Shown here: in pieces, positions 48,908 through 54,040 of the stretch
How positions within the stretch are numbered: the first letter of the stretch is position 1
Layout: each line of letters opens with the position of its first letter
Assembly: GCA_028293125.1 (NCBI GenBank)
Contig: JAQGPJ010000061.1
Span: 124,001-188,000, forward strand
Direction of reading: 5' to 3'
Source: Verrucomicrobiales bacterium
GTDB lineage: Bacteria; Verrucomicrobiota; Verrucomicrobiia; Verrucomicrobiales; V1-33
DNA length: 64,000 bases
The notes under the pieces: generated by a model
What the model saw: the letters and a program-made list of their open reading frames with translations, nothing else
Told to the model about the DNA's origin: nothing
Databases searched by the model: none
Translations under genes and position numbers: made by a program

Positions 48908-50437
<1,530 letters not shown>

Positions 50438-50479: not shown

Positions 50480-50878
50480 CTACGCGAGAACCTGGCTGCG
50501 GAGAGTTTCGAGGCGGGCCTTGACGGAGCCGTCCCAGACAGTGGAGCCCAGCTTGATACGGATGCCCCCGAGGAGCTCGGGAACCGTGCGGAACTCCGCG
50601 GTCACATCGGAGCCGTAGCGGCTTTGCAGGTCGGTCGTGATTTTGCCCTGCTCATCGGCGGCCAGTTCTGTGGCGCTGTCCACAATGGCATGGCGCTTTT
50701 CGAGTTCGAGGCGCAGCAGGCGCTGGTAGGCGGTCAGAATGCCGAGATAGTTGCGCGGCTTGTCAGCGATCACCTTGTCCACAATGGATTTGGCGGCTGC
50801 CTCGTCCACGTTGCCGTTGCGGAGAGTAAGGCGCAGAAACTGCCTGGCGGTGCGGAGAGCGTCTTTGCTGACTTTCAT
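50480..50878 (-). CDS. atpH: ATP synthase F1 delta subunit, short form
   Basis: The stator-tip subunit that joins the F1 head to the b stalk. It has 132 residues, about 45 fewer than the usual 175-180. The C-terminal part is conserved (VPELLGGIRIKLGSTVWDGS, then RLETLRSQVLA). The N-terminal helical bundle (RTARQFLRLTLRNGNVDEAA, IADKPRNYLGILTAYQRLL) is present but compact. No better upstream start exists before the hairpin spacer to atpF, so the shortness looks real. Confidence 0.9.
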   Translation of the reverse strand: MKVSKDALRTARQFLRLTLRNGNVDEAAAKSIVDKVIADKPRNYLGILTAYQRLLRLELEKRHAIVDSATELAADEQGKITTDLQSRYGSDVTAEFRTVPELLGGIRIKLGSTVWDGSVKARLETLRSQVLA

Positions 50879-50988: not shown

Positions 50989-51483
50989 TCAGCCGATCTG
51001 GCTGAGGGCTTCCTTGTTCAGGCGGGCATGGTCCTCACCGGTGAGAGTTTTGCCGGTGACCTTGGAGGTCGTTTCGATGACCAGGCGGCCAAAATCGCGC
51101 TTCAGTTCGGAAAGCACGCGGGTCCGCTCGAGCTCGGTGGCCTCCTTGGCCTTGGTGATGATCAGCTGGGCTTCGGCCACGGTCTCCTGGCGCTTCTGCT
51201 CGGCGATGGCGACGGCGGCGGCCTGGGCCTCCTTGACGATGCGCGAGGCCTCGGCGTTGGCTTTATCCAGCACCGCGGCGCTCTGCGCCTGGGTGGCCGC
51301 CAGATTTTCCCGGATGGTCCCCAGATTGGCCTCACCCTCGGCGATGCGGGCGCGGCGCTGCTCCAGCATGGCGGTCACGGGACCGAACGCATATTTACTG
51401 AGAACCAAATACACGATCCCGAAGATGATGATCTGGGCGATGATCTTGGGCCAGTCGATGCCGAGCTGATTGAGGATTTCCAT
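50989..51483 (-). CDS. atpF: ATP synthase F0 subunit b
   Basis: A 164-residue stator stalk subunit. One N-terminal membrane helix (about 10-30; WPKIIAQIIIFGIVYLVLSK) is followed by a long Ala/Glu/Lys/Arg-rich helix that dimerises and reaches the F1 head (e.g. EQRRARIAEGEANLGTIREN). The length is typical. It follows atpE after a spacer containing a hairpin. Confidence 0.95.
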   Translation of the reverse strand: MEILNQLGIDWPKIIAQIIIFGIVYLVLSKYAFGPVTAMLEQRRARIAEGEANLGTIRENLAATQAQSAAVLDKANAEASRIVKEAQAAAVAIAEQKRQETVAEAQLIITKAKEATELERTRVLSELKRDFGRLVIETTSKVTGKTLTGEDHARLNKEALSQIG

Positions 51484-51609: not shown

Positions 51610-51888
51610 TTAGCGGCCTCCGAGAGCGAGAATAAAGGCGTAAATGGCGATAGCTTCGGCAAGGGCCATGCCGATAATCGCGATCACGAGGATGTTGCCG
51701 AAGGCACCGGGGTTGCGGCCCACAGCCTGGGCGGCGGCGAAGCCGGTCAGACCGATGCCGATGCCGGCGCCGGCACCCGCGACACCGAGGGTGAAGGAAC
51801 CGTTGATAGCTCCGGCGTTGGCCAGCTTGACGGCATCAACAGCGGCGGGAGCGGCTTCCTGCAGCATGGAGGCGATTTCCATCATCAT
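51610..51888 (-). CDS. atpE: ATP synthase F0 subunit c
   Basis: A 92-residue ring subunit with two membrane helices. Helix 1 holds the glycine motif GVAGAGAGIGIG, the loop is RNP (58-60), and helix 2 holds the ion-binding glutamate in GMALAEAIAIYAFIL (Glu78). The residue after Glu is Ala, not Ser/Thr, so sodium-type coordination is unlikely and protons are presumed. Residues 1-25 precede helix 1 as a short amphipathic extension. The start could be Met3. Confidence 0.96.
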   Translation of the reverse strand: MMMEIASMLQEAAPAAVDAVKLANAGAINGSFTLGVAGAGAGIGIGLTGFAAAQAVGRNPGAFGNILVIAIIGMALAEAIAIYAFILALGGR

Positions 51889-51976: not shown

Positions 51977-52942
51977 TCAGTGATGGGCATGCTCCTCGGC
52001 CTCATGGCCCTCATCATGACCGGTGGAGAGCTTGATAAAGACTGCGCAGAGAAGGGCGAAAACCATTCCCTGAAGAACGCCCACGAGGATTTCGAGGAAA
52101 TAGAACGGAATGGGAATGATGACACTGGACAGGAAATCCACGGCGGCATATCCAGTGTGCACCAGGCTGCCGGCAGTGTGCAGCAGATTCTCGCCGGCGA
52201 ACACGTTGCCATACAACCGCAGGGAGAGGGTCATGGGGCGGAAGGCGATGGAGATGATCTCAATGATGCCCACCATGATGAAGATGATGAACAGGCCGGC
52301 CCGGAGACCGCCCTTGATCATGCTGGGCGGAGTGAAGGTGTGGGCCAGAAAGCCGCCAAGACCCACTTCCCGGATGGTGATGTAGAACCATGAGATCAGC
52401 GCGCAGAATGCCAGACCGAAGGTGAGGTTCATATCCGCGGTGGCCGGACGCAGCAGCGGCGTTTCGATGTGGCTGGTGGCAAACAGCCCCGCGAGTCCAC
52501 TGGAATGATGGGTGAACCCGATAGTGCCCACACCGGGAAGCAGTCCAACCCAGTTGGAGATGGTCACGTAAATGAAGATCGTGGCCAGCAGCGGGAAAGC
52601 GCTGATTGCCACCTTGGGGCCCACAATGTTGGCCACCTGATTGTAGAGGAAATCAACAATAAGCTCCACAAGGTTCTGCCGTTTTCCGGGAATCAGCGTG
52701 GGCTTTTTCATCGCGCTGCGGAAGAACCACAGGAAAATGACGGTCACCAGAGCGGCGACAAAAACGGAGTTGGTCAGAAACGCCGCCCAGTGATGGGAGT
52801 CGCTGAAAAAGGACTGAGCCTTGGCGCTGACCTCATGCTTGGCAGGGGGAGCGGCATGCGCCCCTCCCTCGGCACCGCCGTGGACGGCGGCCTCGGCGAG
52901 AGCGGGAAGCGAGGAAAGCAGAGTGGTGAAGCTGCTGGACAT
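51977..52942 (-). CDS. atpB: ATP synthase F0 subunit a
   Basis: A 321-residue membrane subunit that forms the proton half-channels. Five or six helices are visible. The essential arginine is in RPMTLSLRLYGNVFAGENLL (after GIIEIISIAF). ATIFIYVTISNWVGLLPG is also conserved. An extended N-terminus (about 60 residues, His/Ala-rich) and a His/Glu-rich C-terminus (HDEGHEAEEHAHH) are longer than in E. coli. It is the first gene of the operon. No atpI precedes it; the upstream gene is an unrelated membrane protein. Confidence 0.96.
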   Translation of the reverse strand: MSSSFTTLLSSLPALAEAAVHGGAEGGAHAAPPAKHEVSAKAQSFFSDSHHWAAFLTNSVFVAALVTVIFLWFFRSAMKKPTLIPGKRQNLVELIVDFLYNQVANIVGPKVAISAFPLLATIFIYVTISNWVGLLPGVGTIGFTHHSSGLAGLFATSHIETPLLRPATADMNLTFGLAFCALISWFYITIREVGLGGFLAHTFTPPSMIKGGLRAGLFIIFIMVGIIEIISIAFRPMTLSLRLYGNVFAGENLLHTAGSLVHTGYAAVDFLSSVIIPIPFYFLEILVGVLQGMVFALLCAVFIKLSTGHDEGHEAEEHAHH

Positions 52943-53011
52943 GACGGGGCGCGAAGATTAAACGGCATTCAGAACTCCTGCAAAAAATGCGGAGTCAGAC
53001 ACGGAGGCGGG

Positions 53012-53040
53012 GTTTTAATTGATTGGCTACCAGGGCGCAA
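53012..53040 (-). promoter_or_regulatory. Candidate promoter of the atp operon
   Basis: On the minus strand, TTGCGC and TAAAAC are separated by 17 bases, about 70 bases upstream of the atpB start and directly downstream of the CRP-type palindrome. The match to sigma-70 consensus is only moderate. Confidence 0.3.
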
Positions 53041-53046
53041 GAGTAA

Positions 53047-53066
53047 TTTGTGAAATATTTCACAAA
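53047..53066. promoter_or_regulatory. Perfect CRP/FNR-family palindrome upstream of atpB
   Basis: TTTGTGAAATATTTCACAAA is a perfect 20-bp palindrome containing TGTGA-N6-TCACA, the ideal E. coli CRP half-site pair. It lies about 105 bases upstream of the atpB start, in the intergenic region after the preceding gene's hairpin. No regulator gene of this family is in the window. Confidence 0.6.
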
Positions 53067-53080
53067 CTTTTGTTAGCGGT

Positions 53081-53099
53081 GGTTTTCCCCCGGAAAACC
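53081..53099 (-). terminator. Hairpin after the small membrane protein gene
   Basis: GGTTTTCC / GGAAAACC (8 bp, 3-base loop) lies 19 bases past the stop of the gene at 53118. There is no T-tract on the minus strand, so it is a weak terminator at best, but it separates that gene from the atp operon. Confidence 0.35.
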
Positions 53100-53117
53100 G
53101 CTCCCGGACAGCGCATT

Positions 53118-53606
53118 TCAGGGCTCGGCCGGAGGCTGGGCCGGACCGGGGGCGCGCGGTGTTTCCGAAGAGGTGGCCGGAGAAGCGGAGGGCGGGCTGT
53201 TTTTATCACCCAGCCCCGCCTGAAGCTGAATGAACTGGCCTGGCCCTGTTCGGGCGTAGAGCGGAGCGTCGGATGCGGAGGCGGGATTCTCCACTGCTGT
53301 GTAAAGCTGGAAAGGGAGGGAATCCCCCGGTCCGGGCCCCAGCCGGAACATCCGGTCGTCCCGCAGGCGCAGCACTTTGCCGTCCGCCGGAGCCAGCCGC
53401 ACCACCTGCCCCTCCGCCTCCACCTGTACGGGGAATTGATCCAGGCGCCAGTAAGCGTTATCGCCCAGGGCGGTGGGGTAGCTCAGCCACACCGCCCGGT
53501 CCCGCTGCAGGGCGTCCCGCCACGCGCTGACCACCACCAGCCCGGTCAGCAGGGTCAGCAGCACCAGCACACGGGCCGGCGTGCCGCGGGGAAGATTTTG
53601 GGCCAT
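53118..53606 (-). CDS. Single-pass membrane protein of unknown function
   Basis: A 162-residue protein. The N-terminus MAQNLPRGTPARVLVLLTLL has one anchor helix (about 11-27). The middle is beta-rich (YWRLDQFPVQVEAEGQVVRL, then GKVLRLRDDRMFRLGPGPGD), and the last 35 residues are Pro/Ala/Ser-rich. I recognise no family. The start at 53606 removes upstream Cys-rich text that looks non-coding. It precedes the atp operon on the same strand but is separated from it by a hairpin and the CRP-like site. Confidence 0.7.
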   Translation of the reverse strand: MAQNLPRGTPARVLVLLTLLTGLVVVSAWRDALQRDRAVWLSYPTALGDNAYWRLDQFPVQVEAEGQVVRLAPADGKVLRLRDDRMFRLGPGPGDSLPFQLYTAVENPASASDAPLYARTGPGQFIQLQAGLGDKNSPPSASPATSSETPRAPGPAQPPAEP

Positions 53607-53964
53607 GGGAGAGGCGGGGCGGGGATTCAGACAAAGGCCGGGACAGCCGGAGCGGGACAGGCATGAGGCGGGAAACTCCCGCACCGGCGTGCCAAAAGTG
53701 ATTACCGAAACGGGAGGGACATTTCCCCGATGACGTCGTGTCCTTCTGAAAATGATTTATGGCAAACGGTATAGGCAGAAAACCCGCGGCTGCCAATCCT
53801 GAAGACGGGAAGATCGACCAAAACTGCGGCTGCGGAGAGCGGCTCCAGACCTGAAACCGGAATGCGTGTCATTGCCAGATTGCCGGAATCCTTTCCGGCG
53901 GCATCCCTGCACTGCCCCGCTGCCTCCCGGCGAATAGCAAACCCGGTTCCGGAATTATGAAATT
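53607..53964. other. Spacer between small membrane gene and tRNA-Ala
   Basis: About 360 bases with no credible gene. Short overlapping frames on the minus strand are partly shadows of the tRNA. A small palindrome, GCGGGA-AAC-TCCCGC (53668-53682), is seen. Promoter signals are not clear. Confidence 0.55.
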
Positions 53965-54040
53965 TGGTGGAGATTAGGAGATTCGAACTCCTGACCTTCT
54001 CATTGCGAACGAGACGCTCTACCAACTGAGCTAAATCCCC
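53965..54040 (-). tRNA. tRNA-Ala (anticodon CGC)
   Basis: A 76-base cloverleaf read from 54040 down: acceptor GGGGATT / AATCTCC, D-arm GCTC-AGTTGGTA-GAGC, anticodon stem TCTCG / TGAGA around loop TTCGCAA (anticodon CGC, decoding GCG), variable AGGTC, T-arm AGGAG-TTCGAAT-CTCCT, discriminator A and encoded CCA. The G-T pairs in the acceptor and anticodon stems are tolerated. GCG is a frequent Ala codon in a high-GC genome. Confidence 0.93.

Follow-up and report, generated by a model that had tools for sequence, protein, structure and literature searches.

The window, that is, the whole stretch of DNA analysed (64 kb), carries an ATP synthase operon on its minus strand, and a palindrome and two promoter-like hexamers precede the first gene of this operon. 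The features were as follows.

48908–50437, minus strand: atpA (subunit alpha), identified by sequence from its translation
50480–50878, minus strand: probable atpH (subunit delta), assigned from its translation by sequence and place
50989–51483, minus strand: atpF (subunit b), identified by sequence from its translation
51610–51888, minus strand: atpE (subunit c), identified by sequence from its translation
51977–52942, minus strand: atpB (F0F1 ATP synthase subunit a), the first gene of the operon, from its translation
53012–53017, minus strand: −10-like hexamer TAAAAC, 17-nt spacer after the −35-like TTGCGC; a TA-type hexamer is conserved in relatives
53035–53040, minus strand: −35-like hexamer TTGCGC, 7 nt 3′ of the predicted operator, with conserved spacing
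53048–53065, minus strand: predicted Rex operator (ROP), TTGTGAAATATTTCACAA, assigned from the published consensus, the copies in the genome, and conservation; the whole palindrome covers 53047–53066

The spacer that holds the palindrome (52943–53117, 175 bp) is flanked by atpB and a minus-strand ORF (53118–53684) that had no Pfam match, and the original prediction reasonably regarded this gap as the only one able to hold the atp promoter. The perfect 20-bp palindrome, TTTGTGAAATATTTCACAAA, was found at exactly 53047–53066, about 105 bp 5′ of atpB, in full agreement with that prediction. Its core reads TTGTGAAA-NN-TTTCACAA, contains TGTGA-N6-TCACA, and matches the operator TTGTGAA-N4-TTCACAA exactly at 53048–53065. 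No other site in the 64-kb window came within one mismatch of TGTGA-N6-TCACA, and the ten matches with two mismatches were at or below the number expected by chance. Two other elements were noted nearby on the minus strand: a hairpin, GGUUUUCC-GGG-GGAAAACC (53075–53100), between the preceding gene and the box, which is possibly the terminator of that gene although no U run follows it, and a tRNA-Ala gene (anticodon CGC; 53965–54040) 5′ of the ORF.

To place the palindrome in its genomic context, the home genome (G000; 6.48 Mb, DNA of 62.4% GC) was searched, with expectations taken from second- and third-order Markov models. Nine copies of TTGTGAAANNTTTCACAA were found where 0.0007–0.0008 were expected per genome, which bears out the earlier estimate that chance occurrence is low. 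Allowing up to three mismatches, the search for the operator yielded nine sites with none, no site with one or two, and 17 with three, and this gap indicates that the perfect sites form a sharply separate class and not the tail of the background. Across the nine copies, neither the outer TT/AA nor the inner AA/TT varied. Four one-mismatch matches to the shorter pattern TTGTGA-N6-TCACAA depart at the inner AA/TT; they have at least three mismatches in the full-operator search and were taken as background.

All nine perfect copies precede respiratory genes, so that the genome-wide search with listing of downstream genes, suggested earlier as a check, revealed no random scatter. Six lie before complex I genes: nuoF, nuoB(-nuoC), nuoM-nuoN, nuoD, nuoG-orf-nuoH-nuoI-nuoJ-nuoK, and nuoE. 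Complex I does not form a single operon here and is split over six loci (contigs C15, C31, C42, C48, C49, and C77; L020–L024 and L026), each with its own perfect box; in the relative G335, nuoD-E-F are still together. The other three copies precede atpB, a putative polyprenyl (quinone-tail) diphosphate synthase gene, and actA-actB-actC. The synthase was named by similarity, none of its NCBIfam scores reaching an equivalog cut-off. For ActA and ActB, the scores were to Qrc-type relatives, and we take them to belong to alternative complex III from the gene layout and the fusion typical of that family; oxidase-like genes follow actA-actB-actC. In the home genome, no perfect box was found at rex or at non-respiratory genes.

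These counts bear on a rival view, in which the palindrome arose by chance or works in RNA, as a hairpin or as the terminator of the upstream gene. In RNA form, the palindrome could make an AT-rich stem of 10 bp, and another hairpin stands just before it; however, the excess stability was weak (z −1.9), and nothing resembling a terminator with a T run was present. One sequence also recurs at nine functionally related loci and is conserved in relatives, and chance would supply fewer than 0.001 copies. This explanation was rejected on the grounds of the nine related loci, the conservation, and the lack of a T run, and we consider it extremely improbable.

The palindrome was interpreted as an operator of Rex, a repressor responsive to NADH/NAD+, because it equals the published consensus sequences of Rex operators, TTGTGAAW4TTCACAA in Staphylococcus aureus (PMC2883068) and TTGTGAANNNNTTCACAA in Streptomyces avermitilis (PMC5355995). 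The home genome encodes a single Rex gene (G000:C76:205358), which lies 17 kb outside the window; its distance from the atp box is about 28 kb. Its product matched PF06971 (E 9e-17), scored above the cut-off of the NCBIfam Rex models over residues 3–206, and aligned with eight solved Rex sequences with a best E value of 1.5e-45. It has the layout of a Rex protein, an N-terminal Put_DNA-bind_N winged helix followed by a C-terminal NAD(H)-binding domain within about 207–215 amino acid residues, and the GVGNLG nucleotide-binding motif is visible. When the operator contacts of Thermotoga maritima Rex (PMC8836258) were mapped on the alignment with the solved Rex sequences, 10 of the 12 residues were identical (R14, S35, K45, Q48, R50, K51, G60, R62, G63, and Y66). 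The two that differ, D36 and A54, are among the three contact positions called variable in that study.

For the distribution of the box, 113 genomes of the order were examined; 90 of them had one or more perfect boxes and 86 had Rex, and a reversed-pattern control had no occurrence in any of the 113. Rex and boxes were both present in 86 genomes and both absent in 23; no genome had Rex without a box, and the four with boxes and no detected Rex (G004, G024, G051, and G058) are all incomplete assemblies (77–92%). The co-occurrence gave a Fisher p of 3e-20, a value uncorrected for kinship, which inflates the significance. The 23 genomes lacking both comprise 22 of genus g5, which may be Akkermansia proper, although this is a guess, and G077 of genus g26. 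Genus g5 genomes measure 2.2–3.5 Mb. Two independent losses are visible, one across the whole of genus g5 and a separate one in G077; G094 and G103, of the same genus as G077, retain Rex and boxes.

The original prediction had assigned the palindrome to a CRP/FNR-family protein acting on atp through TGTGA-N6-TCACA. The CRP consensus does lie within the site, and the look-up of CRP-family regulators that it called for did yield one protein with a cNMP-binding domain and an HTH_Crp_2 domain (G000:C115, L017), the only one of five cyclic-nucleotide-domain proteins in the home genome with a DNA-binding domain. The remaining four are short proteins with the cyclic-nucleotide-binding domain only (G000 contigs C70, C84, C111, and C14; L015, L016, L018, and L019). 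However, such a regulator was not present wherever the sites are: HTH_Crp_2 was undetected (E 1e-3) in G003, G008, G094, and G106, which are box-rich, nearly complete, and all encode Rex. The recognition helix of L017 reads QETLSR and not RExxxR; the CRP motif is RETVGR, and QETLSR is without its first arginine, so that we presume the helix to be FNR-like rather than CRP-like. Rex operators are marked by the same outer TT/AA and inner AA/TT that never vary among the nine copies, and Rex and the boxes vanish together. Hence, the part of the prediction that placed an operator before the atp promoter very probably stands, whereas the CRP/FNR family was rejected on the Rex-type flanks, the distribution with Rex, and the absence of HTH_Crp_2 from box-rich genomes; we regard this family as very unlikely to act here.

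Relatives of atpB were found in 111 of the 113 genomes, and the upstream region was read in 89 relatives. The box was perfect in 78, had one mismatch in two, two mismatches in two, and three in one, and was missing from six. Among the relatives tested that have Rex or boxes, 83 of 85 carried it 5′ of atpB, and the comparison of atpB upstream regions proposed earlier thus revealed conservation, with the boxes neither absent from relatives nor scattered at random. The six regions without a box belong to three g5 genomes and G077, which have no Rex, and to G023 and G027, which do. In the latter two, no atpB box was found up to about 4 kb upstream; they are genuine exceptions and count against the Rex assignment.

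Across the relatives, boxes precede nuoB, nuoD, nuoF, nuoG, atpB, actA, and the genes for polyprenyl synthase, NDH-2, and Cox1. In genus g25 (L144 and L156; G100 and G063), a perfect box separates a gene for a type II NADH dehydrogenase from a TetR-type gene that diverges from it, a pair at which no box was found in the home genome. G091 has two perfect boxes 7 bp apart 5′ of actA (L161:1501–1543). In G106 (contig C7, L129), a perfect box lies about 160 bp 5′ of the gene for cytochrome c oxidase subunit I, for which no own box was seen in the home genome. The atpB box was also observed on two MAG contigs labelled Akkermansia muciniphila, CAMDJM010000120.1 (L163) and CAMCWM010000299.1 (L164); the box context of L163 matches that of G024 (5.1 Mb, from the genus of the window), and the label therefore looks wrong. 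In the rest of the phylum, Rex-like proteins are frequent and the perfect box is nearly absent, which suggests that the operator or the regulon differs there. The exceptions were G335 of the same class, with boxes at atpB, nuoD, and polyprenyl synthase, and G258, where the rex gene itself has a perfect box about 50 nt 5′ of it, a link between box and protein that does not depend on the consensus.

The −35/−10 candidates that had been noted beside the palindrome, TTGCGC-N17-TAAAAC, follow a pattern kept in the atpB promoters of relatives. Generic promoter and terminator scans of the spacer returned nothing, both hexamers being under the scan threshold, and they were recognised solely through this conservation. 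Of 83 atpB promoters, 74 have a TTG (mostly TTGC) 7 nt past the box and the other nine have it at 5–6 nt; after a spacer of 16–18 nt comes a TA-type −10 hexamer, a spacing figure that is somewhat biased because the best among a few spacings was taken for the −10. In the home genome and relatives, a TTG lies 5–7 nt past the box in 26 of 26 nuo promoters (7 nt in 19). The boxes of actA and polyprenyl synthase mostly lack this −35, and most are 8–46 nt from an ATG. If the hexamers form the promoter, the box centre would be at about −51, just 5′ of the −35; a repressor that blocks polymerase classically sits elsewhere, and this counts against repression by Rex.

This geometry raises the alternative that Rex activates, or acts in both directions, at atp and nuo, where it would touch RNA polymerase from its set place 5′ of the −35, or switches there with NAD+/NADH, and represses where boxes lie near start codons. 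The fixed distance from the box to the TTG at atpB and nuo, and the position of the actA and polyprenyl synthase boxes, mostly close to an ATG and without this −35, speak for it. On the other hand, the Rex proteins characterised in the studies consulted act as repressors (PMC5355995, PMC2883068, and PMC8836258), a repressor blocking the alpha-CTD/UP region would likewise need a fixed position, and the spacing is also preserved by common descent. In addition, G077, which has neither Rex nor boxes, retains TTGCCG-N17-TAAACC 5′ of atpB, and repression is favoured over activation because these promoter hexamers were kept after the loss. We therefore consider activation or dual control unlikely. 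If dual regulation were true, Rex would balance complex I and ATP synthase against alternative complex III.

Taking together what was computed for the operator, its copies and targets, the Rex gene, the co-occurrence, and the promoter geometry, it is highly probable that the palindrome is a Rex operator through which NAD+-bound Rex represses the atp operon and NADH derepresses it, as across the regulon. Given Rex as the regulator, repression is with good confidence the direction of control. We infer binding, repression, the response to NADH, and the transcription start. In the proposed mechanism, a NAD+-loaded Rex dimer would bind the palindrome just 5′ of the atpB −35 and keep the ATP synthase operon at a low level of transcription. 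Whenever respiration falls short of the electron supply, NADH would rise and displace NAD+, Rex would leave the DNA, and the atp operon would be derepressed. The eight other operators would pass the same signal to complex I, polyprenyl synthase, and alternative complex III with the downstream oxidase-like genes, and the cell may thereby tune its entire oxidative-phosphorylation machinery to the NADH/NAD+ ratio.

In Streptomyces, atp and nuo are already known to be under Rex control. Rex of S. avermitilis binds atpIBEFHAGDC and nuoA1-N1 directly and represses both, and the −35 falls within its footprints at atpI and nuoA (PMC5355995). The system described here resembles that of S. avermitilis in the TTGTGAANNNNTTCACAA-type operators and in its aerobic respiratory targets, including atp and nuo. 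However, the operators of S. avermitilis are off consensus genome-wide (two with one, 10 with two, and 24 with three mismatches), whereas all are perfect here; its complex I is encoded by one operon, whereas six loci here have their own operators; and its targets include cydABCD, rex-hem, and wblE, whereas those here include alternative complex III and polyprenyl synthase. S. aureus Rex shares the operator consensus TTGTGAAW4TTCACAA, but it controls fermentation and nitrate respiration for anaerobic NAD+ regeneration and not complex I or ATP synthase (PMC2883068). The Rex-operator structure of T. maritima (PMC8836258, PDB 7WB3) is related through the conserved DNA-contacting residues. CRP operators have the inner TGTGA-N6-TCACA in common with the site, but their regulator does not fit, nor do the invariant positions on the flanks or the phylogenetic spread.

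In the literature searched, which excluded the comparative study of Ravcheev et al. 2012, no report of Rex in Verrucomicrobia was found, nor any Rex regulon that combines so close a restriction to oxidative phosphorylation with a scattered complex I under perfect operators. From sequence, what seems to be new is a compact, perfect-operator Rex regulon that is confined to oxidative phosphorylation and unites a scattered complex I. It appears to be one redox switch for the whole respiratory chain, and the order would gain a single testable switch of this kind for oxidative phosphorylation. The repertoire of Rex would be widened by alternative complex III and quinone-tail synthesis, and genus g5 and G077 are predicted to have lost Rex control. 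Where it is retained, a complex I spread over six loci could still be co-expressed by means of identical perfect operators.
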